This document shows positions 2,998 to 60,667 of a stretch of 64,000 bases of DNA, piece after piece. Source of the DNA: a virus; IMG/VR virus record IMGVR_UViG_3300036939_000084, positions 43,264-107,263 of that record; one strand, written 5' to 3'. The position numbers were made by a program, and so were the translations under genes. The stretch's first letter is position 1. Every line of letters begins with the position of its first letter. The notes below the pieces were generated by a model, which saw only the letters and a program-made list of their open reading frames with translations, did not search any database and had not been told where the DNA came from.

Positions 2998-4302
2998 ATG
3001 TCTGAAATGTACAAGAGTTTGCGATTCCGTAATGTCAATACCGTTACGGGACTTCGCACACCAGCCGTTGATACTGATGCTTTCCGACTAGTTGACTTCC
3101 GGGAAGGCGCAACTAACATCACAAACCAATTCCAAAATGCTGACGCCGCAGAGGCTCAAGCTCGTGAGGATGGTGACGCGACCTTGCAGAATAGCCTGAA
3201 TACTGCGATCGCGCAATTGGAAGCTGCCTACCAAGCTGCCGACACCGCAGAAGCTCAGGCACGACAAGCTGATATTCAATCTCTAGTTTCTGGTTTCACT
3301 CCTAAAGATCCAGTATTTACAATTCTCAATGCACCTGTTGCTTTATCAGGTCTAACCGTTAATACCCCATCGTTTAATGGCAGCATTCCGGCAGGTAGCC
3401 GTGTTTTAGTTATTGGTCAAGGGGGAGACGCGGCAACGGCTGATGTTGCTAACGGCATCTATATTGCGGCTAATGGAGCATGGAGTCGTTCTACAGATGC
3501 TGATGAAGGCGATGAACTAGTTCGGTCAATTCTAGTTCCAGTCGAGAATGGCACAGATGCGTTTCGCAACACCATTTACTTCCTAGCTGAACCAGCGATT
3601 TTCCGGGATACGGTTATCGGTACTACCGCTCTTCGTTTTTCGCGCTGGCTAGGAACTGAGAATGTCCGCGCCGACGAAACAACAATTCATCGGGAAGGTA
3701 ACGTCTTCTCTACTATTCTCAATGCCACCCAACTAATAGCAGGTGCAAGCGGAATTGAATTAGCCCCAGCATTTATCGCTCAACTGCGCGACTTAGGTCA
3801 AGCCACTGGCTTGCTGAGCACAGATCAGATTCGAGACTTGATGGCTTACATCACCGCCATCACTCTAAACAGTTTTGCCGCGCCAACCGCACCAGTAGCC
3901 TACGCCAACCAGCGTATTACTAATCTTGCTGACCCTACAGCGCCTCAAGATGGCGTCAATCAGCGAACATTGACAGCAGCCGTTGATTCTCTTAATGGTG
4001 CAATTAACAACCTCAATCAAACCCTTACCGCATCTATCCAGGCGCAAGAAGATAAGGACGGTTACTACCCTCTATCTGGCGGGGATATCGTAGATGGCGA
4101 TCTTGTTGTAACAGTCAACCACAACAAGAACTCTTTCAAGATCATGAAGGAGGTTATTGATGCAACGAATGGCGAAACTATAGACACCGATTTTGTTCGG
4201 ATTATGAACAACGGTGCAAACGAGTGCCGAGTAATTTTTAGAGGACATACGACCATCGCAGCAGGTCAATTTGCACTGATGGTGCATCGCGTTGCTTCCT
4301 AA
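2998..4302 (+). CDS. Tail fibre protein
   Basis: A 434-residue protein starting at an ATG with an AGGAGG site. The N-terminal third holds Ala-rich helices (AAEAQAREDGDATLQ and a similar AEAQARQADIQSL) as in trimeric phage fibres. Around residue 310 is QRITNLADPTAPQDGVNQRT, the common phage tail-fibre repeat. The C-terminus is a compact beta-rich domain. It probably forms part of the host-recognition apparatus and opens a run of six adhesin-like genes. Confidence 0.75.
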   Translation: MSEMYKSLRFRNVNTVTGLRTPAVDTDAFRLVDFREGATNITNQFQNADAAEAQAREDGDATLQNSLNTAIAQLEAAYQAADTAEAQARQADIQSLVSGFTPKDPVFTILNAPVALSGLTVNTPSFNGSIPAGSRVLVIGQGGDAATADVANGIYIAANGAWSRSTDADEGDELVRSILVPVENGTDAFRNTIYFLAEPAIFRDTVIGTTALRFSRWLGTENVRADETTIHREGNVFSTILNATQLIAGASGIELAPAFIAQLRDLGQATGLLSTDQIRDLMAYITAITLNSFAAPTAPVAYANQRITNLADPTAPQDGVNQRTLTAAVDSLNGAINNLNQTLTASIQAQEDKDGYYPLSGGDIVDGDLVVTVNHNKNSFKIMKEVIDATNGETIDTDFVRIMNNGANECRVIFRGHTTIAAGQFALMVHRVAS

Positions 4303-4310
4303 TTCAATAT

Positions 4311-4346
4311 GAAGAATGCCATCGGTGAAGAGTCGGTGGCATTCTT
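4311..4346 (+). terminator. Terminator between fibre genes
   Basis: GAAGAATGCCA and TGGCATTCTTC stem eight bases after the stop of the first fibre gene. Confidence 0.75.
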
Positions 4347-4375
4347 CACTTTCACCTTAATGTCGGTAGGTTTTC

Positions 4376-5380
4376 GTGGCTCAAACAATTCAGTTTAAAC
4401 GCTCGCCTGGAACAACCCCTCCTGCAACCCTTGCACCCGGTGAACCAGCCTGGTTAGACGGTAATAATACCTTGTATATAGGTAAAGTTAGTGGCGGAAT
4501 TCAGGCGATCGCAGGCGACAACACTGGTTACATAAAAGGAAATCAGAATATAAACTTTACAGGAGATGTCACAGGTTCTGGTACTACGGCAGTCGCCTTA
4601 ACTCTGCCGACCTTACCAGGGCTATCTGTGGGTACCTACTCCAAGGTGACTGTTAACGTGAAAGGGCAGGTGACAGCAGGAGCAAATCTAACTGCTTCAG
4701 ACATTCCTGCTGTGCCAATTAGTAATATAACTGGACTCCAAGCCGCGTTAGACAGTAAACCAACTTTGGTTAATGGGGTTCTTCCGACCAGCGTCTTGCC
4801 TGCCATATCAATATCAGATACGTTCGTCGTTGCTTCTCAGACCGCCATGCTTGCCCTCACTGCACAGCGAGGTGATTTTGCAGTTCGGACTGATATTTTA
4901 GAAAACTTTATTCTTCAAGGTAACGATCCAACGCGATTAGATAACTGGGTTCAGTTAGTACATCCAACTGCCGCAGCGGGTGGGGTTCAAACCGTTAACA
5001 GTTTGACAGGTCCAAATGTTACCCTTGCAGCAAGCAACATCCCCTTTACTCCGACCGGAGGTGTAACCAGTAACAACACTCAGTCTGCGATTACTGAGTT
5101 AGATACCAAGAAACTCTCCGCCAACCAGACTATTGCTTTTACAGGAGATGCCACGGGTTCAGGGACAACGGCAGTTTCTCTAACCCTAGCAACCATACAA
5201 GGTCTGTCTGCGGGCAGCTATTCCAAGGTAACGGTTAACACAAAAGGGCAGGTAACAGCAGGAACAAGTCTCGTTGCTACAGATATTCCTGCTATTACTA
5301 TCTCTCAAGTAACTGGACTCCAAACTGCTCTCGATGCCAAGCTCAATGCGACAGCCGTAATTGATGGAGGGACGTTCTGA
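4376..5380 (+). CDS. Tail fibre with internal repeat
   Basis: Starts at GTG preceded by GGTAGG. The N-terminus (IQFKRSPGTTPPATLAPGEPAW ... TLYIG) matches a short virion-attachment module seen at the start of many phage fibres. Two homologous blocks of about 50 residues follow (G-D-V/A-T-G-S-G-T-T-A-V near residues 63 and 256, each with SKVTVN-KGQVTAG), showing tandem duplication. The same N-terminal module starts the next gene. The stop overlaps the next ATG (TGATG), so translation is coupled. Confidence 0.75.
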   Translation: MAQTIQFKRSPGTTPPATLAPGEPAWLDGNNTLYIGKVSGGIQAIAGDNTGYIKGNQNINFTGDVTGSGTTAVALTLPTLPGLSVGTYSKVTVNVKGQVTAGANLTASDIPAVPISNITGLQAALDSKPTLVNGVLPTSVLPAISISDTFVVASQTAMLALTAQRGDFAVRTDILENFILQGNDPTRLDNWVQLVHPTAAAGGVQTVNSLTGPNVTLAASNIPFTPTGGVTSNNTQSAITELDTKKLSANQTIAFTGDATGSGTTAVSLTLATIQGLSAGSYSKVTVNTKGQVTAGTSLVATDIPAITISQVTGLQTALDAKLNATAVIDGGTF

Positions 5381-7110
5381 TGCCGGATATCCGTTTAAAA
5401 CGTTCCACTGGTAGCACGGCCCCTGCGAGTTTGAGCCCTGGTGAGCCAGCTTGGGTAGACGGAACTAAAACTCTCTATATCGGAAAAACGGGTGGTGGTG
5501 TTGAAGCAATCGCTGGAGATGGGGCTGGGTATGTCAAGACTAGCAACCTCTGGGTGAATGCTCGTAACTTCGGTACTAAGGGAGATCTGGTCACTTCCAG
5601 GGTTGATCATCAAACTCAAGCTTACATCTCAGGTTCCGACGACACTGCTGCATTGCAAGCTGCTCTTAACTATGCTGGATCACTGGTAAGCTCGGATTTA
5701 ACTTTAGAGTTTGAAGGCAATGTAGTTTGTTATGTACCTTTTGGAATTACAGGCAAGTATCGGCTTACAGCTCAACTTAAGATCCCGCCCAACGTTATTT
5801 TTCATTGCGAAGGGTTTATTTATAATTTTTTGAGTGACCCTCATCAACCGATGATTTGGGGCGATCGCCACTCGCACTGTAGAAAACTTCAGGTACACTG
5901 CAATGGTAAAGCTGGGGTTGACTGGGGAAGAGTTGGTAGTGATCCTTGTGCTTCAAACCTGGAATCTCTTGTAATTTGGAACGTCGGGGTGGACTTCAAC
6001 CCTTCTGAACCTACAAATCGCCAAAAATGTGGATTAAGACTATACGGTTTAGACTTTCGTATTGGTCATGTTTGGGTCAAGGGTGGCAACATCGGTATAC
6101 ACGGCTCTGGGGCTTCCGATGTTCTGAGTGCTAACCTCTTTTTAATCGGCTGCGCCAACGGGATGCAGCTTCAAAACGGCGAACAGTGGAGTTGCCCATC
6201 AATTTGTATTGATACTAATATAACTAGCGGTATCAATATAGATAACTGCAACAATATTGAGTTGAAAGCTAGGGCATTCATTGATAGCGATACCTACGGT
6301 ACCCCGATGCAGTATGGTGTTGTTATCGGTCGCTATACGGGTTCTCGGTTAAATACCAATATTGAAATCGAGTACGCTGCTCAATCTACGGGCGGATATG
6401 GAATAGAGGTTGGTAAGGTTGAAAGCTTTAAAGGCAAATTTTATTTAACTAATTCCCGAACGTATTCGCAGAATGGCACAGGGGCAACCAGTCATTGGAC
6501 GCCAACAAGTACAGGAGCTTTACTTCCTCACGATATTGGGCGTTTCTATTACTTAAACAATGGTGTTCCAGCAGAAAATGCAGCAGCGGCGGTAAAATAT
6601 ACAGGAAACTATGGGCGGTATGTCGATATCGACGTTTACCTGGATGATGGTATTCCGCTTTCTGAAGGAACGATTTATGGACAATTGCGTGGTCATTTTC
6701 CCTCATCAACAGTTAAATATCCAATAGATGGCAACACCAGCCCTGGGCAAGTAACGGCGACAGCAAGCGAGGCTATCACCGCTAATTCCTTGGTTAATAT
6801 TGTCGCGAACGGTCAGATTCGGAATGCTAGTGCAAGTGCAGGTATTCCCGCAGACGGATTTGTTCGAGTAACTGTTGCCAGTGGTCAACAGACGATCGTT
6901 TATCTACTTACTGGAATAGTATTTACTCCGCTAGTAGAAGCAAATACAGTACTGACTGCGGGAGCAGATTATTTTCTGTCTACAGTAAATGGAAGGATCT
7001 CAGCCAGTACCGTTGATCAAAACAGTGGGTACCTGCATCAACGTATCGGAAAGGCTATTAATTCTACTACTTTAATATTCCGCCCAAGCGATTCAATTTT
7101 GAAGAGTTGA
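5380..7110 (+). CDS. Tailspike with predicted beta-helix
   Basis: It shares the N-terminal attachment module of the preceding gene (RLKRSTGSTAPASLSPGEPAW). After about residue 75 comes DDTAALQAALNYA, a hallmark of pectate-lyase-like beta-helix tailspikes, followed by several hundred residues of Gly/Asn/Ile-rich short strands. Such spikes bind or cleave surface polysaccharide; the enzyme activity cannot be judged from sequence alone. At 576 residues it is a usual size. Confidence 0.75.
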   Translation: MPDIRLKRSTGSTAPASLSPGEPAWVDGTKTLYIGKTGGGVEAIAGDGAGYVKTSNLWVNARNFGTKGDLVTSRVDHQTQAYISGSDDTAALQAALNYAGSLVSSDLTLEFEGNVVCYVPFGITGKYRLTAQLKIPPNVIFHCEGFIYNFLSDPHQPMIWGDRHSHCRKLQVHCNGKAGVDWGRVGSDPCASNLESLVIWNVGVDFNPSEPTNRQKCGLRLYGLDFRIGHVWVKGGNIGIHGSGASDVLSANLFLIGCANGMQLQNGEQWSCPSICIDTNITSGINIDNCNNIELKARAFIDSDTYGTPMQYGVVIGRYTGSRLNTNIEIEYAAQSTGGYGIEVGKVESFKGKFYLTNSRTYSQNGTGATSHWTPTSTGALLPHDIGRFYYLNNGVPAENAAAAVKYTGNYGRYVDIDVYLDDGIPLSEGTIYGQLRGHFPSSTVKYPIDGNTSPGQVTATASEAITANSLVNIVANGQIRNASASAGIPADGFVRVTVASGQQTIVYLLTGIVFTPLVEANTVLTAGADYFLSTVNGRISASTVDQNSGYLHQRIGKAINSTTLIFRPSDSILKS

Positions 7111-15091: not shown

Positions 15092-15712
15092 ATGTTACAG
15101 CTTTTCACGTTTGAATCCAAGGAAGTTCGCTTTGTCGGTACAGCTGACAAGCCTGAATGGATTGCTCAGGATGTATGCAACTGCCTTGATTTAGCTAATG
15201 TTAGTCAGGCGCTTGACTCGCTCGATGAGGATGAAAAGGGTATCACGATTATAGATACCCTTGGAGGTGAGCAACGGTTGCTAACAGTGACAGAGCCCGG
15301 TCTTTACAGTCTTACCTTTAAATCCCGTAAGGCACCTGCTAAGCGATTCAAGCGATGGATATTTCATGACGTTTTGCCCTCTATCCGCAAGACTGGTAGC
15401 TACAGCGTCAGTCAGCAACCTATTCAACAATCCTCAGTCAAGGAAGAAATCGACATTCTCAAGGACTGCCTTTTTATTGCGGGACTTGACCCGAAGTTAA
15501 TTGCAGGGATTGCATTAAATCACGCAGGTACTCGGATACCAGAACTTAAAGAAGCTGTACAAGAGGGACATGAGCTGCTAGCTGCATCAGGACAAACCGA
15601 ATTGCTGCTTACTCCAACAAAAATTGGAAAAGAACTGGGGATATCCAACCGCAAGGTTAACGAGATCTTAGTGACATACTCCTACACTGACTTGAGTACA
15701 GGTACAGTGTAG
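15092..15712 (+). CDS. BRO-N domain antirepressor-like protein, C-terminus probably disrupted
   Basis: The N-terminal 110 residues are a clear BRO-N domain ([21 protein letters not shown] ... [30 protein letters not shown]). I start it at the ATG at 15092, which has AGGAG nine bases upstream, not at the open frame's first ATG. The C-terminal HTH-like part ([19 protein letters not shown]) ends abruptly where the TnpB element begins; the last residues are coded by the element's terminal hairpin, so the original end has been replaced. Confidence 0.7.
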
Positions 15713-15713
15713 G
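15681..15713 (-). repeat. Right-end hairpin of tnpB element
   Basis: Perfect 9-base arms with a 15-base loop. By analogy with IS605 elements this would be the 3' part of the omega-RNA, with the guide just beyond it. Confidence 0.5.
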
Positions 15714-16911
15714 CTTCCAAGACAATCCGGCTATCACTGAGGAGACTCTTGGCTTTAAGAACGGGATGCCCCGCCGCTCTATTTTTGATATTAATAGCTG
15801 CATTATGATCGCGGTCTAAACTACACCCACAATGGGGACAGTCGTGCCAGCGAACATGCAGCTTTTTTGGTACTTTCTCGCCGCAATTAGAGCAATCTTG
15901 TGAGGTGTTATGGGCACTGACAGGGACAACCAACAAACCAGCATTTTCGGCTTTGTTTGTCAGTATCGACAGAAAGCTTGACCACCCAGCATCCAGCACA
16001 GATTTAGCTAATCGGGTACGAGAAAGACCTTTAACATTCAACTCTTCGTGAGCAACTACGTCATATTTTGATAACAGCCACTTGGCGGTTTTGAAGTGAA
16101 AGTCTTTTCTCTTGTCAGCAACTTTCTTATGCTGTTTCCCCAACTGTTTAATAGCTTTAAGCCTACCGTTACTTCCCTTCTTACGGCGTGATACCCGCTT
16201 TTGAATGACTCGTAAGCGTTTTTGCGCCTTGCGATAGTGCTGAGGGATGGCAATCGTTTCACCCTCGGAAGTTGTTAAAAATTCCTTTAGTCCTACATCA
16301 ATTCCGGTAATTTTGTTCGGATTGAAATCTGGCTTAATTTCGGGAACGGTTTTGTCTTCGAGGGAAAGCGTGAGGTAATAGCCATCAGCCTTCTTAGTAA
16401 CAGAAGCGGTTTTAATCTTGAACCCATCTGGGATAGGGCGATGCAGAACAACCTTAACTTTGCCAAACATCGGTAAGTTAATCTGGTTGCCTTGCAAACA
16501 CCCATCCTTCATCTGAGGATAAGTAAAGGTGCGATAACGATTCTTCGCTTTAAACCTAGGCTTACCGCTTCTTTTACCGCTACTATCACCCTTTAAAAAA
16601 CGGTCAAATGTTACCTTGACTCGCTTAACTACATCTTGAATAACCTGGGAATAAATCTCGCTGTACCAGGGATGAGTTTTCTTGAGTTGGGGTAGCGTCT
16701 TTTTTTGACTGTAATAGTCAGGATTATCCCTCAGCTCTCGTAGATGGCAGACAAGGGGGCAAGCATTGACAGGAGAACGATTTTGCTCATACCAGTTAAA
16801 CCTATCAGCCAACAAATAGTTGTACTGAGCACAAAGCATTGCAAGCCACCTATCAAAGTTGGCGGCTTGCAATGCTGTTGGTCGTAATCGGTACTGGTAG
16901 GCTGTTCTCAT
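15682..16911 (-). CDS. tnpB: TnpB RNA-guided nuclease
   Basis: A 409-residue TnpB with all catalytic landmarks: RuvC-I Asp in GIDVGLKEF, Glu in [11 protein letters not shown], and final Asp in [10 protein letters not shown], plus the four-Cys zinc ribbon (CSNCG ... CPHCG). It is probably an active nuclease guided by an RNA from its own 3' end. No tnpA is present, so movement would need a transposase in trans. Confidence 0.85.
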
Positions 16912-17290: not shown

Positions 17291-17302
17291 TGTGATAAAA
17301 TA
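17291..17302 (+). promoter_or_regulatory. TGTGATAAAATA promoter box
   Basis: Perfect copy, 20 bases before the ATG at 17322. Confidence 0.75.
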
Positions 17303-39860: not shown

Positions 39861-39872
39861 TTGTTATAAAAT
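39861..39872 (+). promoter_or_regulatory. TTGTTATAAAAT promoter box (variant)
   Basis: Identical to the box at 38827; 114 bases before the ring-nuclease gene with an attenuator-like leader between. Confidence 0.65.
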
Positions 39873-39896
39873 AAACACAAAAACAGAGAAGAGCGA

Positions 39897-39962
39897 ATGA
39901 AATTCTTCTTTTTCTAGATCTCCTCGACAACTTTCTCTATCATTTGGATAATAGAGAAAGTT
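39897..39962 (+). promoter_or_regulatory. Leader peptide MKFFFF plus 12-bp hairpin
   Basis: ATG-AAA-TTC-TTC-TTT-TTC-TAG gives a Phe-rich hexapeptide at 39897. It is followed by a perfect 12-base stem (AACTTTCTCTAT/ATAGAGAAAGTT) with a ten-base loop. This resembles an amino-acid-sensing leader or a translation-coupled switch upstream of the ring-nuclease gene. Confidence 0.4.
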
Positions 39963-39986
39963 TAGAACAAACAAAGGTTTCGGTTA

Positions 39987-40352
39987 ATGACTATATATTT
40001 TGGCTTCGCGATCGCTGACAGCATGATTCCGGATGACGCCGACATTCAGAAGCGCAAACTAGAAATTGAGGAGGCTAAAGAATTGATTCAGACTGCTGTG
40101 CCATGCGTGAATGCCTCGCATACCGCAACGATTGAAGCTATGACTGAACGATTCGGGATTCAACTAGAAATTCCCGAAAAACCACCTATGGTTAATCTCC
40201 AGTATGGTGACGTGTTGGTAGTTATGGGCGTTAGAGGGCTACCTCGGCTCACAGATCGCCATCACTACACGGAAGAAGAGATAGCGGCTGCGTCTTTTAA
40301 GTTCAGCTCGTATGAAATATTTGAAGATTTAAGAGAGCTGTACGCAAACTAG
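39987..40352 (+). CDS. Ring-nuclease-like protein of the DUF1874/AcrIII-1 family
   Basis: 121 residues with the DUF1874 layout: strand-turn FGFAIADSMIP at the start, helix EEAKELI, then VNASHTATIEAMTERFGIQL with the candidate catalytic His at 45, the strand GDVLVVMGVRGLPRL, and the closing EEEIAAASFKFSSYEIF. Family members in archaeal and bacterial viruses degrade cyclic tetra-adenylate and so switch off type III CRISPR. Type III CRISPR is common in cyanobacteria, which makes such a gene useful to a phage. Assigned from motif order and spacing only. Confidence 0.7.
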   Translation: MTIYFGFAIADSMIPDDADIQKRKLEIEEAKELIQTAVPCVNASHTATIEAMTERFGIQLEIPEKPPMVNLQYGDVLVVMGVRGLPRLTDRHHYTEEEIAAASFKFSSYEIFEDLRELYAN

Positions 40353-40429
40353 TTTAAATAAGCCGAAACACCGAAACAATCGGTGTCTGCCAGGTAGTCG
40401 TTTACTGGCACTGACGAGGAAGACGAATA

Positions 40430-40651
40430 ATGTTCGATCAAGGCAAAGACTTGAAACTATTTTTGCTCACTCGTGACGGTAACTATTGGGTGGCCGAAGT
40501 TCAGCACAATGGCTGGGAGGTTATTGAAGAATTTGTTTGGTCTGCCAACAAAACCGAAAATATTCTCATTAACTGGCTAGAGCGTTTAATTGCAGAAGGC
40601 AAAATCACGGTAGCTGATGCTATCCGTGTAGGGGTTTACATTAACCGATAA
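40430..40651 (+). CDS. Hypothetical protein, 73 aa
   Basis: A small acidic protein with no known motif between the ring-nuclease and Nudix-like genes. Its stop overlaps the next ATG, so it is coupled to the Nudix-like gene. Confidence 0.55.
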   Translation: MFDQGKDLKLFLLTRDGNYWVAEVQHNGWEVIEEFVWSANKTENILINWLERLIAEGKITVADAIRVGVYINR

Positions 40652-41373
40652 TGCCTAAAGGTAGTAATCCCAATAGCCACCACAATAAGCCCACCATCTC
40701 AGGATTAAAAGCATCGGAAATATCTCTCCTGCATGAGCAATGGGCTTTTCTAGAAATTATCGGACGCAAAAATAAATCAAGAGGAGGACGTGAAGTGGTC
40801 AGAGCGATGCAAGTCATTGCCAAGCGCAATTGGCAAAAATCTGCTGAAATTTTCAAATGTGAGCCAACACCAGAAGCATTGAAGTCCAAGCTGATTGAGA
40901 TGTTCCCCAGCATTCAAAAGGGGCGCAAAACAGCAGATGATTTAATTCAAGAAATAGCTTTAGGCGAATGCAGCCTTGATTGGAAACCTGAGACTGGTTT
41001 TATCAGAGTTGTTAATTTAGCTAGTATTGCTATTGTTGATGGCGATCGCAAGCTCGTCGAGGCCTATCAGGAACTAGCGAGTGGAGAAATATTCCCCCGC
41101 AACATCGAAGGCGTAGCAGAGAAAATCCAGTATCCTGAATCTCCCCAAGAGGGAGCACTGCGAGGATTAGAAGAGGAATTGGGAATTGTACCTGCATCTT
41201 TAGAGTTTATTGGTGAGACCTTTGATAAGAATCAACGGTCAAAATACCAGGGTATTGAGTCCTTTGCGCGAAAGTATCAATTTCGCGCAACACTCAAACC
41301 GGAAGATATCAAAGATGAGTACGTAGAAGACAGGGATGGTGATAAGACAGTGTTTAGATGGGTTCTTGTTTAA
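40651..41373 (+). CDS. Nudix-like hydrolase with N-terminal helical domain
   Basis: Around residues 170-190, ESPQEGALRGLEEELGI matches the Nudix box (E-x7-R-x-L-x-E-E-x-G-I), with Gly in place of the first Glu after Arg. The two metal-binding Glu residues of the EE pair are kept. The N-terminal 100 residues are helical and basic, possibly nucleic-acid binding. With the neighbouring ring-nuclease-like gene it could act on a signal nucleotide, but the substrate is unknown. Confidence 0.55.
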   Translation: MPKGSNPNSHHNKPTISGLKASEISLLHEQWAFLEIIGRKNKSRGGREVVRAMQVIAKRNWQKSAEIFKCEPTPEALKSKLIEMFPSIQKGRKTADDLIQEIALGECSLDWKPETGFIRVVNLASIAIVDGDRKLVEAYQELASGEIFPRNIEGVAEKIQYPESPQEGALRGLEEELGIVPASLEFIGETFDKNQRSKYQGIESFARKYQFRATLKPEDIKDEYVEDRDGDKTVFRWVLV

Positions 41374-41375
41374 TT

Positions 41376-41387
41376 TGTGATAAAATA
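41376..41387 (+). promoter_or_regulatory. TGTGATAAAATA promoter box
   Basis: Perfect copy, 30 bases before the ATG at 41418. Confidence 0.75.
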
Positions 41388-41417
41388 AACATACAGATCA
41401 ATAAGGAAAACAAAAAG

Positions 41418-41765
41418 ATGGGTTGGAATGGATTCCAAGAGGCAATTGGCGGATACATAGAAGAAGTTGTCGTAAGACAGCTTAAAGTTAACGAGTACAA
41501 TGTTTCAGTTAAAAACATTGCTCATCGACAAGAACAAGGACTATTGAGTAGTTCCACTGCTTTCTACCAGGGAACCACGTATAGTGGTGAATGGTTGGTG
41601 CTTATGTCAGATATTGAGTTGTCCACTGAGCTTGTCAGAAGGGACAAAGAAAAGAACGAAAAACAGAAGCTAATAAACGAATTAAATTCTCTCGTTTATC
41701 ACAAAGGTGTCATCACTAAAGCAATGAAACAGAGAATCGCAGAACTTAGAAGAATTTTGTACTAA
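41418..41765 (+). CDS. Hypothetical cassette protein, 115 aa
   Basis: The ATG at 41418 is preferred to 41358 because the promoter box lies between them. A strand-rich N-terminal half and a basic helical C-terminus (DKEKNEKQKLINELNSL). Followed by a copied gene end and terminator. Confidence 0.6.
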   Translation: MGWNGFQEAIGGYIEEVVVRQLKVNEYNVSVKNIAHRQEQGLLSSSTAFYQGTTYSGEWLVLMSDIELSTELVRRDKEKNEKQKLINELNSLVYHKGVITKAMKQRIAELRRILY

Positions 41766-41767
41766 AA

Positions 41768-41858
41768 ATTCTTGTCTAGGATGATATTTGCGAAGAAAGC
41801 CCAAAAGTTGTTGATGTAGAGCGTTCCTCTAAAAGCAGAAGGTTGCCAGATTAAAGAA
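41768..41858 (+). pseudogene. Copied 3' end of the gene at 41955-42224
   Basis: About 85 bases match 42140-42225 closely (LVWDDIREENPKVVDV in the full gene; here frame-disrupted), and the terminator that follows is also related. It is a remnant with no start. Confidence 0.75.
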
Positions 41859-41890
41859 AAAGTTATCGCATATATATGCGATAACTTTTT
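41858..41890 (+). terminator. Terminator after copied gene end
   Basis: AAGTTATCGCATA and TATGCGATAACTT arms with TTTTTT; a diverged HIP1-stem terminator. Confidence 0.85.
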
Positions 41891-41954: not shown

Positions 41955-42224
41955 ATGACTATCAACAAAATTCAACATTTCGAGTTCGGTGAATACGAAG
42001 GTAGCGACCGGATATCGGGAAGAATTGAAGCCGGGGACGATGGATTGGCCGTATTCATAGATGGCTATGGCGAATGTACTTCTCCAGACGGTAATGGGGC
42101 AATCATTATCCTTGAAAAATACCAGGGACGACTAAGGGTTCTTGTCTGGGATGATATTCGCGAAGAAAATCCAAAGGTTGTTGATGTAGAGTGCGCCTCT
42201 GAAAGCAGAAGGTTGCCGAATTAA
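41955..42224 (+). CDS. Hypothetical cassette protein, 89 aa
   Basis: Acidic, strand-rich (GRIEAGDDGLAVFIDGYGEC), with no family known. It is a self-contained cassette with its own box and HIP1-stem terminator. Its 3' end is duplicated at 41768. Confidence 0.65.
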   Translation: MTINKIQHFEFGEYEGSDRISGRIEAGDDGLAVFIDGYGECTSPDGNGAIIILEKYQGRLRVLVWDDIREENPKVVDVECASESRRLPN

Positions 42225-42227
42225 AGA

Positions 42228-42264
42228 AGAAGCGATCGCGTTATTATCTGCGATCGCTTTTTTC
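42228..42264 (+). terminator. HIP1-stem terminator
   Basis: AGCGATCGC and GCGATCGCT arms followed by TTTTTTC. Confidence 0.85.
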
Positions 42265-43210: not shown

Positions 43211-43432
43211 TCAAAACATCTTTCCTCTCCAAAAACGATGTCGATCTTGGATTAGCAAATATTGAGAATAGCTTGGCTGTAAAGGATCACAATTAATTAG
43301 ACTGTTGAGTTGTTTCATTTCGGATTCCCAAAAAGTCAGATCCACAGGCGGATACCGAGAATTCCAGTGATGAGTTCGGAGATATCGTCGCAAAGCTTCT
43401 CGTTCATGCCAAAGAGTGAAATTTTTAGACAT
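43211..43432 (-). CDS. Hypothetical protein, 73 aa
   Basis: Starts at an ATG at 43432, eight bases inside the methyltransferase gene's end. A basic protein (WHEREALRRYLRTHHW) of unknown function; possibly a partner of the methyltransferase. Confidence 0.55.
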   Translation of the reverse strand: MSKNFTLWHEREALRRYLRTHHWNSRYPPVDLTFWESEMKQLNSLINCDPLQPSYSQYLLIQDRHRFWRGKMF

Positions 43433-44570
43433 CGACCAATAAACCTTTAAGACAACTTGCCATGTCCGTGATCGCCCCCGGCAGCATCCCCATCGACAGC
43501 ATCTTGATCCGCTCATTCGCCGACAACTCGACGAGCTTGCCCTCATGTGACAAACCATACCTGGTACAGTCTGTCATCTCCCCCATTATGCGTTCAATTT
43601 CGGTTGGCAGGGGAGGTCGGGTTTCACCGTTGGGCATCCTCACTTTCATGTGGCCGGTACCAGGCTGACGATACCCTGAGCGTTTCTGCCAGTTCATTCC
43701 CCGAATAGTGGGAGCGAAGCGCGTGTATACTCGTTCCCCCGCTGCTGCCCTCATCACGAAAGCGGTTGCTCCCTTTTCCAGTACATTCTGCAACGTCGCC
43801 CAGTGGTAGGCAAAGTTCTCAAACTCTGCATCCACGGACAGGAGTTGACCCAAGCCAAAACAGCAGAACTTGAGAGACGGAGGTGGAGATGCATCAGCTA
43901 AATTGCTGATACTCAGCGTCTTTTCCTTAAATGCGCTAAGCCTCTTAAAGAAGTGGTTTGCAATTTGAGCGGGAGCCTTGCGACTCAACAAAGGGAATAC
44001 CCCGGCTAGTGCCTGAACATTCAAATCAATACACGGTTGACCAAGATCTAATAAATCATTTCGGACGCCGATTAGATAAATCCGTTGGCGCAACTGAGGT
44101 GCCCAGTGGGTACCATCAATAACACCAGAACAACCAGAGTATCCAGCCTCGCTTAAGGCGGATAAAAACTCCAGATAATCAGTTCCTGGCGGACGGTCTT
44201 TTACTTTCCGGGGAGAGCTGAGCATTCCTGGGACATTCTCAAACAGAATCCCCCTAGGCTGCTTGTCGAGAACCACTCGCACATACTCGAAAGAGAGACT
44301 ACCAATTTCACTATGGATTCCCTGCTGCATCCCGCCAGAGCTGAATGCTGTACAAGGGCTGCCGCCCAGAATAATGTCGGTGTCCGGAAAGGCGGAGGAA
44401 GAATAGCTACAGATATCTCCTTCAATCGTTTTGCAATTTGCAAAACGATAGCGGTGGACTGACAAAGCCTTGTCATCTATATCATTGCCGCAGATGACTT
44501 CAATTCCTGCTTTAACTAATCCTGCGGTACCAAGTCCAGCGCCGCAAAACAAATGTAGAGCTGTTAGCAT
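43425..44570 (-). CDS. C5-cytosine DNA methyltransferase
   Basis: All main motifs are present: I (LHLFCGAGLGTAG), IV with the catalytic Cys (GGSPCTAFS), VI (FENVPGM), VIII (QLRQRIYLIG) and X (IKMLSMGMLPGAITDM). The ATG at 44570 has a GGAGGAG site; a longer frame from 44657 belongs to the overlapping gene. No restriction enzyme is adjacent, so it is an orphan that may protect phage DNA; the target is unknown, although GCGATCGC sites are abundant. Palindrome copy 22 and a TTTCGCAAATTGC repeat lie at or in it. Confidence 0.85.
   Translation of the reverse strand: MLTALHLFCGAGLGTAGLVKAGIEVICGNDIDDKALSVHRYRFANCKTIEGDICSYSSSAFPDTDIILGGSPCTAFSSGGMQQGIHSEIGSLSFEYVRVVLDKQPRGILFENVPGMLSSPRKVKDRPPGTDYLEFLSALSEAGYSGCSGVIDGTHWAPQLRQRIYLIGVRNDLLDLGQPCIDLNVQALAGVFPLLSRKAPAQIANHFFKRLSAFKEKTLSISNLADASPPPSLKFCCFGLGQLLSVDAEFENFAYHWATLQNVLEKGATAFVMRAAAGERVYTRFAPTIRGMNWQKRSGYRQPGTGHMKVRMPNGETRPPLPTEIERIMGEMTDCTRYGLSHEGKLVELSANERIKMLSMGMLPGAITDMASCLKGLLVDV
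43440..43449. repeat. Palindrome copy 22 (right arm changed)
   Basis: AATAAACCTTTAAGAC within the last codons of the methyltransferase gene. Confidence 0.65.
44429..44446. repeat. TTTCGCAAATTGCAAAA repeat inside methyltransferase gene
   Basis: CGTTTTGCAATTTGCAAAACG, a 21-base near-perfect palindrome coding RFANCKT in a variable region. Confidence 0.7.
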
Positions 44571-44985
44571 TTTTGCTCCTCCAGTTTTTGCAACACCCGC
44601 GCCACGATCTTGTCGCAATGACAAGTACGGGGGGAGCACAACACATAAGGTATACATTGTTTCTCGCCCGAACCATCTGAAAGATCCGCATCATCTCCGC
44701 TGAAACCTGACGAGATTTTGGATTTTTAAATGTTGGCGAAATCTGCAATCCCTGCTGCTTCCAAATCTCTAAGGAAATGTGGATATTGAGATAATGGCGA
44801 TAAGCCAAAAGGTTCTCTTCTAACCACTCGTCATAAGCTTGGCAGACAGTGAGGCGATCGCACTCCTTCCTCATCTCAAACGGATTTCCCAAGACCGAGG
44901 AGCGATCGCACCGAACCTGCAACCACCCCTTCTCGCCAACCCAGCCACTTCGCAACGACCCAACTTTAATTTGCCCTGACTTCAT
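44564..44985 (-). pseudogene. DUF4326 protein with a frameshift in a C tract
   Basis: The N-terminal part (LQVRCDRSSVLGNPFEM ... YDEWLEENL) is a DUF4326 domain. The frame then breaks at a run of six C (minus strand, near 44630). Shifting by one base restores APPRTCHCDKIVARVLQKLE, the family's usual C-x-P-x-x-C-H ending, with a stop in ATGCTAA that overlaps the methyltransferase start. So seven C were probably present originally. It may be a sequencing error, a phase-variable tract or a -1 ribosomal frameshift. Confidence 0.6.
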
Positions 44986-51607: not shown

Positions 51608-52807
51608 TCACACTGGATTAACCAGTATCGGCTGCACGGCGCAGCTCACTACTCCCTCAGCGGTGAAGGCTCCTGGGAGATGCTTGCGGATAATCTGAAT
51701 ACTTCCATTGATGTCCGCATTAATTACACGTCCAGCTCTAGATTTAAACAAACCTCTTTTGACTCGCTTTCCAGCATATTCTGGTTGCTTACAAGGAGGT
51801 TCTAAGTCTAGGGCTGATGTTTTTGAGGTGTAACTTTCCTCTTGGATTACTACCTTGATTCCTGTCAGTTCGCACTTGTAGGTTATCTGGTCGATTAGCT
51901 TGGCATGAGGAATATTGACAAACTTCTGATTGTTTCGCTTGCCCATATTTACTTCTTGCTTCCAGCCATCGTTTTTGCCGATAACCAAAGTGCCAATACC
52001 TTGCTGTCTAAGCAGGTCTACAATCAATCGACTGGTGTTGTGCAGGTAGTTTTCAACGAAGCGATTACGGTGATACGTGAGAGTCTGTATTCGTCTGCTA
52101 GTGCGGATTTCGCTCTTGAGATAGCCCTGAAGTTTTGCCTTAAGCTTGTTGTAATATTGATTTCGGCTCTTGAGTGGTCTTCCATTAACCAACAAAGGTC
52201 TGAAGCCTGGTTGGTTTGACGTTAAAGCCACAAGATTGTCTACGCCTAAATCAATACCAGCTATCCATTGCGACTTTATGGATTCAATGTCTGGTACATC
52301 GTAAACGATTTCCAAAATGTAGCAATCAGAACTTGGAACAATTCGAGCTTCTGCAATGTTCACTGCTTTGGTAGGAACACTTATATTGCTCATCGATAAG
52401 TGACAACGTCCCTGTTTCAAGCCAGCCTTGTAGATTGACTCATGATGATAGATGACGATGTTTCGTCCTTTGGTCTTGTCCTTATATCTAGGGATACGAG
52501 GCTCACTTTTGTATTTATCTGGATGTTTCCTCCAGTCTTTGTGAGCCTCGAAGTAAGACTTCCAACTCTCAACTAGTTTTTTGACTATCTGTTTCGAGAC
52601 TTTGGTAGGTAAAGCTCGATAAGATTCTGTGTATTTGACTAAGTGATAGAGAGTTGGAAGTGTATAGCGATTTCCCGTTTCAAAGAAGTGTTGACGGCAA
52701 AAATAATTAGCTGCGTTGTACAGATTTTTTGACTTAAAAGCCAATTCATCTGCCTCCCGCCAGCATGCATGATTTCGGTTTATGACGTGTCTTTCAACCA
52801 ACTTCAT
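51608..52807 (-). CDS. tnpB: TnpB of IS607 element A
   Basis: 399 residues with RuvC-I GIDLGVDNL and a final Asp in INADINGSIQI. At the usual Glu position the sequence reads VIGKNDGWKQE, without the canonical Glu, and the zinc-ribbon Cys pairs are missing. It may use a relocated acidic residue or be inactive as a nuclease. Overlaps tnpA by four bases. Confidence 0.8.
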   Translation of the reverse strand: MKLVERHVINRNHACWREADELAFKSKNLYNAANYFCRQHFFETGNRYTLPTLYHLVKYTESYRALPTKVSKQIVKKLVESWKSYFEAHKDWRKHPDKYKSEPRIPRYKDKTKGRNIVIYHHESIYKAGLKQGRCHLSMSNISVPTKAVNIAEARIVPSSDCYILEIVYDVPDIESIKSQWIAGIDLGVDNLVALTSNQPGFRPLLVNGRPLKSRNQYYNKLKAKLQGYLKSEIRTSRRIQTLTYHRNRFVENYLHNTSRLIVDLLRQQGIGTLVIGKNDGWKQEVNMGKRNNQKFVNIPHAKLIDQITYKCELTGIKVVIQEESYTSKTSALDLEPPCKQPEYAGKRVKRGLFKSRAGRVINADINGSIQIIRKHLPGAFTAEGVVSCAVQPILVNPV

Positions 52808-53442
52808 GTCTCGCAGCCCCCGACGACTTTTAGATGACGCTCCTTACGTCTATCAGCCGACCTTTTCCCGTATATCTTTGCCGAGAACGAGGCAAGTAGC
52901 GAAAGCATATCTTCCACTAGCTCTGCCTCGTAAGACTTGGGCAGCACTTCTTCAATCAACTCAATCGATACGCCGTGACTTGAGAAGAATTCTTCGTAAA
53001 TTCCGAAGTTAAATCTGGTCAATCGGTCTTTGTGTTCGACCACAACCTTGGTGATTTTTCGCTTGCTCACCAATTGGAACAGTTGTTTTAGTTTTGGGCG
53101 TGTATCCGACATTCCCGAACCTACTTCAACAAGGATGTGGTCAACGTTGTACTTGCGGTTAACGCAATACTCTAGGACTCTAGCTTTTTGCCTGTCTAAG
53201 TCGCCTTTGGTCTTTTGGTCGTGGCTTGAAACCCTTACATAACATACGATGCTCTCCTTTGGCTCCTGTTGTTCTTGTTTGATACCTAGAAGCTGATTGA
53301 TATCAGATTCCTTGTATCTTCGATGACCACCTTGCGTTCTTAGCGCTGGCAACTTTCCACTGGCATCCCATTGTCTAAGTGTCCATTCGGATACATTGAG
53401 CTTCTCAGCTACTTCAGCGATTGTTAACAGCCTTTCTTCCAT
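52804..53442 (-). CDS. tnpA: IS607 serine recombinase
   Basis: 212 residues: a MerR-like HTH (LTIAEVAEKLNVSEWTLRQW) then a serine-recombinase domain with the nucleophile in YVRVSSHDQ and the late ARG/ALARG-like region (VEHKDRLTRF). It moves the element by a synaptic tetramer. Confidence 0.9.
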   Translation of the reverse strand: MEERLLTIAEVAEKLNVSEWTLRQWDASGKLPALRTQGGHRRYKESDINQLLGIKQEQQEPKESIVCYVRVSSHDQKTKGDLDRQKARVLEYCVNRKYNVDHILVEVGSGMSDTRPKLKQLFQLVSKRKITKVVVEHKDRLTRFNFGIYEEFFSSHGVSIELIEEVLPKSYEAELVEDMLSLLASFSAKIYGKRSADRRKERHLKVVGGCET

Positions 53443-57424: not shown

Positions 57425-57443
57425 GGCTAACACCGCCTAACTG
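57425..57443 (-). ncRNA. Terminal hairpin of omega-RNA region, element B
   Basis: CCGCC-TAACT-GGCGG at the tnpB stop; the omega-RNA scaffold of tnpB would lie here, with the guide beyond 57425. Confidence 0.35.
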
Positions 57444-58525
57444 GCGGCTTTCTCCAAATTAATGGAGGCGTTTAAGTCGCGGTCAATTTCAAGACCGCAC
57501 TGGTCACAGTGGAACACTCTTGTCGTAAGAGAGAGTGTTTCTTTTTTGGTTCCACAATTCGAGCAAGTCTTACTGCTAGGGAACCATCGGTCAATTACGA
57601 TCAACTTAGAACCGCGCAGTTCACACTTGTACTCAAGCTGACGGCGAAATTCGTAAAATCCCATGTCAGCAATAGCTTTGGCTAACTTATGATTTGCCAA
57701 CATACCGGACACATTTAGATTCTCAATCCCAATCTTGTCGTGGTTTTTGACGAGATAAGATGTTAGTTTGTGCAATGAGTCCTTGCGGATATTGGCAATC
57801 TTGCGATGCAGTCTAGCTATTTGTACTTGAGCTTTTTTCCAATTATTGGAGCCTTTGACCTTATGGCGATTAAGCCACTGTAACCTTGAAAGCTTTTTCT
57901 CATGCTCGCGATAGCTAAACGCGCCTTCAAATACGACACCCGTTGACAGTGTAGCCAGTGCTTTGACGCCAAGATCTACACCCACAGCTGGTACGGCTTT
58001 TGGTTCATTGGTTGGCTCAATCTCAATTTTCCAACTGATAAACCATCTATCGGCTGTGCGACTTATCGTAAAAGATTTGGGTTTATGGTCAACTGGCAAG
58101 CGTTCATAAGTTTTGAGCCAACCAATCACAGGAATTTTGACTCGAAAATGGTCAACAGCCAACGAACCATCAACGGTAAAGCTATCAGCGCGTCCTTTCT
58201 TTTTGAATCGTGGCGGTTGCTTGATTTTCTTGAAAGCTTGTTTCCAGGCTTCTGATAGCTGCCTTAAAGCGTATTGAGGAGCGCATTTGGAAACCTCATA
58301 GTACCAAGGAAACTCAGGCTTAACCATTGCAACTAGCCATTTGTGGAGGTCTACCGCAGTGGGAAATTTGATTTTCTCTTCCGGGTTTTCTCTGTTATGG
58401 TTAAGTATCTGTAAGGTGAGTCCTAGCCCCCAATTCCAGGCGTGTCTGGCTACACCACAATGCTTGGCTAGTTGTGTCCGCTGTTGATTATTGACCTTGA
58501 GTTCCGTCTTAAAACCTAAAAGCAT
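57437..58525 (-). CDS. tnpB: TnpB of IS607 element B
   Basis: 362 residues with intact RuvC residues (GVDLGVKAL, GIENLNVSGM, EIDRDLNASIN) and a four-Cys zinc ribbon (CSNCGTK ... CDQCG). Likely active RNA-guided nuclease, in contrast to element A. Confidence 0.9.
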   Translation of the reverse strand: MLLGFKTELKVNNQQRTQLAKHCGVARHAWNWGLGLTLQILNHNRENPEEKIKFPTAVDLHKWLVAMVKPEFPWYYEVSKCAPQYALRQLSEAWKQAFKKIKQPPRFKKKGRADSFTVDGSLAVDHFRVKIPVIGWLKTYERLPVDHKPKSFTISRTADRWFISWKIEIEPTNEPKAVPAVGVDLGVKALATLSTGVVFEGAFSYREHEKKLSRLQWLNRHKVKGSNNWKKAQVQIARLHRKIANIRKDSLHKLTSYLVKNHDKIGIENLNVSGMLANHKLAKAIADMGFYEFRRQLEYKCELRGSKLIVIDRWFPSSKTCSNCGTKKETLSLTTRVFHCDQCGLEIDRDLNASINLEKAAS

Positions 58526-59383: not shown

Positions 59384-60667
59384 TCATGCATAAGCGTAGC
59401 CATCCTTTTTGTGAATGTGCGTGCAATATTTGTGGCTGATTCCTTGAACTAATCCATCAGGAGCCGAGATATTGAAGCTACCAGTGGCACGAGTGGAGAC
59501 TCGACCAACATAAGTCCCAACTTTTTTTCCAGTGGTGACAACAGCTTTAACAATGTCACCTGTCTGAAAACCCTTGTGAAACTTGGTTCTGGAGCAATAA
59601 CGAACTGGGAACCCAAACTTATCAGTCCGACATTGTTGGCGCGTTCCGTGACCTTTAGCCGTAATCAGTAAAGGCTTGACTGCTAACGTGATTAACTGTT
59701 CAGGTGTCGATGCTCCAACACAAGCAGCATCCCAGTAGTGAGTCTTTTCCAGTCCTCTAAGGGTTCGGTTGTACTTGGTTCGTCCCCCAGTCCCAACTTC
59801 TACAGGTAAACCTGTTCTCTTGAGGTTTTCGTAAAGGTTCCATCGGGTTGCATTGACGGCTGCTGTGTCAGCCAAAGGTTTTTTAGCTTGTGCCAGAATT
59901 CGTTTGAGTAGGTCAGGCTTTCCTTTGAGAAAGTCTTTGATATCCTGATTTCCTTTTTTCTGATTGCAAGGAGTACAGGCTAAACACAGGTTACTGACTC
60001 TGTTAGAACCACCTTTTGCGCGAGGTTGAATATGCTCAATTTCAAGTTTGGTGTCTTTTGCCCCGCAGTAAGCACAAGTCCTGTCCCACTTTTCAAGTAG
60101 AAACTCACGAATCTCGTATCCGGCAAGCGTACCCTGCTGGTATCCAACCCCACTAATTTCCGAATCCTGCATCTGCTGGGTGTCAAACCTTACCAATTCC
60201 TGAGATACGGCTGTGATTTGACACAGTGCTGACAGGCGTTTAACCCAAGTCAAGATGTTGGCAACTCGACTATTCAGAGACGGCGGTAACCATCCTTTAG
60301 GGCGGGTGCGGTTAAGGAAACGAGGTTTACGATATCGGGTCTTACGATTACGTCGTGAACGTCTTAACTGGCGACGTGAAGTTAAAGCATCCCGAATTTG
60401 AAAACCACGATGCTGCAACTCAGCAACCCAGACGACTTCACCTGTTGTGTCGTTGACCAGGGCAAGCCCAGTTGTCTTTGCGCCTGGATCAATTTTCACC
60501 CTGAGTGGTTCAACGGCTGGGTTTGGCACTTCCTGCTTGAGTACGAGAGTGAAAGGGTAACGGCGAAATACCGCAGCTTTACCTTGAGATAGCAGCATTC
60601 TTGCCCTACCTGGATGGATGGGATTAAGAGGCTGTTTGTTGGTGTCTAGAACGAAAACTTTACTCAC
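59384..60667 (-). CDS. iscB: IscB RNA-guided nuclease
   Basis: 427 residues in the order typical of IscB, the ancestor group of Cas9: PLMP-like domain (PLNPIHPGRARMLLSQGKA), RuvC-I (VKIDPGAKTTGLALV), Arg-rich bridge helix (RRQLRRSRRNRKTRYRKPR), HNH (CAYCGAKDTKLEIEHIQPR and CNQKKG) and RuvC-III (HYWDAACVGAS). Catalytic Asp, His and metal-binding Cys are all present, so it is probably active. Its omega-RNA lies upstream. Confidence 0.9.
   Translation of the reverse strand: MSKVFVLDTNKQPLNPIHPGRARMLLSQGKAAVFRRYPFTLVLKQEVPNPAVEPLRVKIDPGAKTTGLALVNDTTGEVVWVAELQHRGFQIRDALTSRRQLRRSRRNRKTRYRKPRFLNRTRPKGWLPPSLNSRVANILTWVKRLSALCQITAVSQELVRFDTQQMQDSEISGVGYQQGTLAGYEIREFLLEKWDRTCAYCGAKDTKLEIEHIQPRAKGGSNRVSNLCLACTPCNQKKGNQDIKDFLKGKPDLLKRILAQAKKPLADTAAVNATRWNLYENLKRTGLPVEVGTGGRTKYNRTLRGLEKTHYWDAACVGASTPEQLITLAVKPLLITAKGHGTRQQCRTDKFGFPVRYCSRTKFHKGFQTGDIVKAVVTTGKKVGTYVGRVSTRATGSFNISAPDGLVQGISHKYCTHIHKKDGYAYA

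Follow-up and report, generated by a model that had tools for sequence, protein, structure and literature searches.

Organisation of the locus

The window, by which we mean the whole 64,000-nucleotide stretch of DNA analysed, corresponds to positions 43264-107263 of a virus record of 107,263 bases. Within it, three plus-strand genes lie between two copies of a recurrent promoter-like motif:

39862..39877, plus strand: promoter-like motif TGTTATAAAATAAACA, which opens the three-gene unit
39929..39962, plus strand: hairpin in the leader of the ring-nuclease-like gene (15-nt arms, 4-nt loop)
39987..40352, plus strand: P0001 (121 aa), a divergent AcrIII-1/Crn2-like (DUF1874) protein; H45 is encoded at 40119-40121, R87 at 40245-40247 and D90 at 40254-40256
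40430..40651, plus strand: open reading frame for a 73-aa protein of no recognised family; its stop overlaps the next start
40651..41373, plus strand: P0002 (240 aa), with a C-terminal Nudix domain (PF00293)
41376..41391, plus strand: next copy of the promoter-like motif, TGTGATAAAATAAACA (1 mismatch), which ends the unit and serves the gene at 41418

Scoring the window for the motif at up to three mismatches gave 15 matches against 1.0 expected, a number reached by none of 100 shuffles. Of the exact motif TGTKATAAAATA, the 107 kb record has 20 copies, compared to 0 for the reversed control. The phage-wide form of the motif is TGTGATAAAATA, which reads TGTTATAAAATA before the ring-nuclease-like gene. 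Copies are mostly located 30-41 nt 5′ of start codons and in the sense of the gene; examples are found at 17291, 23142, 39862, 41376, 41917 and 42285 on the plus strand and at 896, 2765, 28172 and 32462 on the minus strand. Since copies of the motif bound the genes at 39987-41373, one before them at 39862 and one at 41376 directly after the Nudix stop codon, the three genes are probably transcribed together as one unit under a phage promoter of their own. The stretch 39861-41373, singled out in an earlier note on this DNA, is to this extent borne out as a real unit. The start of the P0002 gene overlaps the stop of the 73-aa gene by one base (TAATG), in agreement with the claim of the same note that a Nudix-like gene is coupled to a small gene. 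For the 73-aa protein itself, none of Pfam, PHROGs and NCBIfam gave a family match with a meaningful E-value. The leader before the ring-nuclease-like gene is unusually long (~110 nt) and contains the hairpin listed above; the idea of a structured leader was rejected, as its folding is no more stable than that of shuffled sequences (z −0.35).

The phage and its likely host

The record carries phage replication genes (for a DnaB-like helicase, a DnaG-like primase and a sliding clamp) together with structural and lysis genes. Nucleotide searches of phages and plasmids with the central 24.5 kb gave no near relative, and a tRNA scan found no tRNA. The HIP1 octamer, GCGATCGC, is present in 65 copies per 64 kb where 0.6 would be expected from base composition. 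This octamer is typical of cyanobacteria, and its excess therefore suggests that the host of the phage is very probably a cyanobacterium. Type III CRISPR systems are abundant among cyanobacteria. The type III-D CRISPR system of the cyanobacterium Synechocystis uses cA4 signalling (PMC9676260).

Several other features of the same phage were recorded. Three TnpB-like genes (OrfB_IS605/Cas12f1-like) and one RRXRR-HNH (IscB-like) gene are located, jointly, at 15682-16911, 51608-52807, 57437-58525 and 59384-60667, all on the minus strand. A MerR-resolvase gene (52804-53442) adjoins one of the TnpB genes in an IS607-like arrangement, and a C5-cytosine DNA methyltransferase is encoded at 43425-44657 on the minus strand. 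Two copies of a 109-nt direct repeat (41761-41869 and 42131-42239, 84% identical) lie at the ends of two small genes, partly inside and partly beyond them, adjoined by hairpins with HIP1-like octamers. A 792-aa protein matched reverse transcriptase models in PADLOC because of its DnaG primase/Toprim domains, and these matches were rejected.

P0001 is a distant homologue of AcrIII-1 and Crn2

P0001 matches the Pfam family PF08960 (STIV_B116-like) with E=1.5e-4 and 22.3 bits, under the gathering score of 26, and PHROG 5063 with E=4.5e-6; no other family in Pfam or PHROGs competes with these two. PADLOC makes no call for the protein. A tblastn search yielded only proteins of Planktothrix plasmids (32% identity, E=9e-15) and a weak match to an archaeal virus. 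A profile built from six members of the clade to which P0001 belongs identified AFV3-109 (2j6b; E=5.4e-4) among 177,635 PDB sequences and also gave a weak match to the Crn2 part of Csx1-Crn2; the catalytic His aligns. L015, a canonical Crn2 from genome G008, which has Cas10 on the same contig, scored 48 against the clade profile, compared to 19.5 or less for 100 shuffles.

Structure prediction of the 39987 protein points the same way. An AlphaFold model from seven sequences (pLDDT 93.1, pTM 0.83) was compared to the PDB with Foldseek, and its best 16 matches were all AcrIII-1, AFV3-109, B116 or Csx1-Crn2, with probability 1.00. These family matches, which include AcrIII-1 (2x4i, 6scf), have E-values from 2.6e-6 to 1e-3; the next match is unrelated (E=2.2). 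STIV B116 is among the viral matches of the model. The earlier note had assigned the protein to DUF1874 from its motif order and had named the fold as a point on which this would stand or fall; the model matched AcrIII-1/Crn2/B116 folds only.

The motif NASHTATIE, whose His was part of that assignment, is present, and this His (H45) aligns with H47 of AcrIII-1 (SIRV1 gp29) and is kept in all 15 complete members of the clade. R87-L88 is kept in 15 of 16 members, and R87-L88-T89-D90 of P0001 aligns on canonical R-L-P-E, of which R85 and E88 are functional residues in AcrIII-1. At the position of E88 an acid (D) is found in P0001, and D, E, N, T or G among the members. The loop after R87 is unlike RLPEG in most members, where the clade signature GLPRLxDRHEYTxEEI stands in its place beside the active site; two members (L022 and L023) read RRLNEGE, bridging the form of the clade to canonical KRLPEG. 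In AcrIII-1, H47 is reported as a likely general acid and the H47A mutant is inactive (PMC12830947, PMC7213978).

P0001 thus resembles the AcrIII-1 proteins (SIRV1 gp29, STIV B116, AFV3-109; PF08960) in its predicted fold, viral genome, catalytic His, Arg-Leu motif and small single domain, but differs from them in its low identity (~15-20%), sub-gathering score, signature in place of RLPEG and longer C-terminus. With Crn2 and Csx1-Crn2 it shares the fold (8y7f, 8y7g) and the active-site His, whereas it lies outside a CRISPR locus and without a Csx1 fusion. The ring nuclease Csx16 is reported to be structurally similar to 2J6B (PMC12409355), as is P0001, which however has no Pfam or NCBIfam match to Csx16. 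Fold, homology and active-site residues together give good support to P0001 being a distant AcrIII-1/Crn2 (DUF1874, STIV-B116-like) homologue from a divergent clade, here in a cyanophage, with ring-nuclease activity predicted from its sequence and model. This clade is a little-noticed branch of the AcrIII-1 family.

Distribution of the clade

Relatives were gathered by a degenerate GLPRLTDRH pattern followed by alignments; one of two pattern matches (L004) was rejected as a chance match. Members are found in phages, Planktothrix plasmids, one Moraxella MAG and Patescibacteria. The relatives at 44-56% identity come from an IMG/VR phage (L005), the Moraxella MAG (L007), Patescibacteria MAGs (L006, L008 and L009) and two viral contigs, one with a GemA gene (L013) and one with RusA (L014). 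Scans of IMG/VR for close relatives with P0001, P0002 or a recombination directionality factor-like protein returned nothing.

Among sampled Patescibacteria genomes, 8 of 380 (~2%) contain a clade member. At least two of the Patescibacteria copies lie amid core chromosomal genes, as judged from translations read by eye: L006 is near site-2-protease-like and undecaprenyl-diphosphate-synthase-like genes and MutM, and L009 is near ClpP-, trigger-factor- and NusA-like genes. The Cas10 palm domain was found in none of ten Patescibacteria genomes carrying the clade, which suggests no link between the clade and type III CRISPR in this group; since these are MAGs of uncertain completeness, the absence is suggestive only. 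Cas10 is present in G008 and in the Moraxella genome, where it is on another contig than the clade member.

A TrmB-type regulator lies within ~4 kb of the member in five of ten Patescibacteria genomes (L006, L009, L025, L027 and L030), against 0.28 expected, a proximity with a probability of ~2e-6 on rounded genome sizes that is a post-hoc observation and carries no correction for being so. At two Patescibacteria loci, L026 and L028, the ring-nuclease-like gene stands beside the same neighbour protein of ~500 aa (4015-5523 and 3646-5208, respectively, both on the minus strand), for which one of the two copies was scanned and gave no Pfam match. One further Patescibacteria member, L019 (G508:C17:6297-6632), contains one in-frame TAG and is either a broken gene or one with a recoded stop.

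The Nudix gene

The claim of a Nudix-like protein at 40651 holds, in that residues 141-222 of P0002 match Pfam NUDIX (PF00293) with E=1.1e-6 and 29.1 bits, over the gathering score of 21.1. The N-terminal ~140 residues match no known family. A remnant of the Nudix box, E-x7-RGLEEELGI, is encoded at 41137-41187 (residues 163-179, ESPQEGALRGLEEELGI) and keeps E-x7-R-x-U-x-EE-x-G-U, that is, seven of the nine positions of GX5EX7REUXEEXGU. The first Gly is replaced by Glu and the first Glu of REUxEE by Gly. As the box is incomplete, we describe P0002 as a Nudix-fold protein and at most a putative enzyme. Compared to Nudix hydrolases such as MutT, RppH and ADP-ribose pyrophosphatase, P0002 shares the domain and retains E-x7-R-x-L-x-EE-x-G-I, but has the two replacements, the extra N-terminal region and no close relative among the sequences searched. 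A homologue was found neither in phages, plasmids and IMG/VR nor in 299 Pseudomonadota genomes, an empty answer that is weak evidence; a single-sequence structure model was rejected (pLDDT 41).

Co-occurrence of a ring nuclease and a Nudix gene in other genomes had been proposed as a check; in the records searched, no relative had a Nudix gene nearby. Among the records of eight relatives, a Nudix gene shares the contig with the ring-nuclease gene only in Moraxella, 19 kb off, and none was recognised among the genes neighbouring the relatives. We therefore see the pairing as belonging to this phage rather than to the clade. The literature library searched yielded no paper that links a ring nuclease with a Nudix enzyme.

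Proposed function and alternative explanations

We think it reasonably probable that the 39987 gene encodes a ring nuclease with which the virus removes a cyclic oligoadenylate, probably cA4, and so blunts type III CRISPR. This proposal starts from what the analysis shows: the open reading frames, the homology, the predicted fold, the conserved residues and the motif-bounded unit. Expression of P0001 would be driven by the promoter that recurs throughout the phage, and by analogy to AcrIII-1, a viral enzyme that destroys a CRISPR alarm molecule, the protein presumably dimerises. Its ligand would be a cyclic oligoadenylate, most probably the cA4 that Cas10 produces in a cyanobacterial type III CRISPR system; P0001 would cut this molecule via H45, and R87 and D90 would take the positions of R85 and E88. 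Upon loss of cA4, effectors activated by it, such as Csx1, would stay off. The 73-aa gene and the Nudix gene probably share a transcript with that of P0001, and P0002 most likely serves a separate nucleotide clean-up rather than a step of the P0001 reaction. In favour of a ring nuclease we count the location in a phage, the cyanobacterial HIP1 signature and the use of cA4 by a cyanobacterial type III-D system; among the ring nucleases of phage genomes, AcrIII-1 is the commonest (PMC12409355). Against it we count the sub-gathering Pfam score, the altered RLPEG loop and the ten Patescibacteria genomes without Cas10.

The last two of these points would also fit an enzyme, be it a ring nuclease or a phosphodiesterase, that acts on a signal other than Cas10-made cA4, for example cA3 or a cyclic nucleotide of CBASS or another kind; Cas10 does share a contig with the canonical Crn2 of G008. 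However, the His, the Arg-Leu and often the acid are conserved, the MAGs are incomplete and their copies may be recent phage acquisitions, and the Moraxella genome in which a member was found also encodes Cas10, if on another contig; we regard a different signal as rather unlikely. The same holds for the GLPRLxDRHEYT clade being a ring-nuclease family in its own right that acts on a substrate of its own, in phages and in Cas10-less Patescibacteria near TrmB-type regulators, which we consider improbable to a like degree. That P0001 might be a sponge that binds cyclic nucleotides and does not cut them, or have another role on the same fold, seems very unlikely indeed: fold and pocket can persist without turnover and the E88 equivalent varies among members, but the catalytic His is invariant in the complete ones.

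The earlier note had gone further and proposed an anti-signalling island, in which ring nuclease and Nudix protein act as one set, the latter removing a second signal or a linear product. The single promoter-bounded unit, the translational coupling of the Nudix gene to the small gene and the processing of ADP-ribose signals proposed for phage Nudix domains (PMC7824862) would be in line with such a set. Since the relatives examined are without an adjoining Nudix gene, the box is degenerate at two positions, P0002 has no homologue in the databases searched and no paper in the library searched joins the two activities, we hold a functional set to be decidedly unlikely. The ring-nuclease half of the island is thus well supported, by fold, homology and residues, and the Nudix protein as part of a set is not. 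The sole link between P0001 and P0002 is a shared short transcription unit in one phage; the "island" comprises two unrelated predicted enzymes in one unit, and a joint set beyond probable co-transcription is not supported.

With P0001 as a candidate viral ring nuclease that falls below the Pfam cut-off and draws no PADLOC call, ring nucleases of this clade are probably undercounted in phages, here in a cyanophage whose likely hosts are rich in type III systems. Should the clade prove to be a separate family, this would indicate that a cyclic-nucleotide signal exists beyond type III CRISPR. If its members are active, the Patescibacteria without Cas10 would make the action of DUF1874-type proteins on non-type III signals directly testable.
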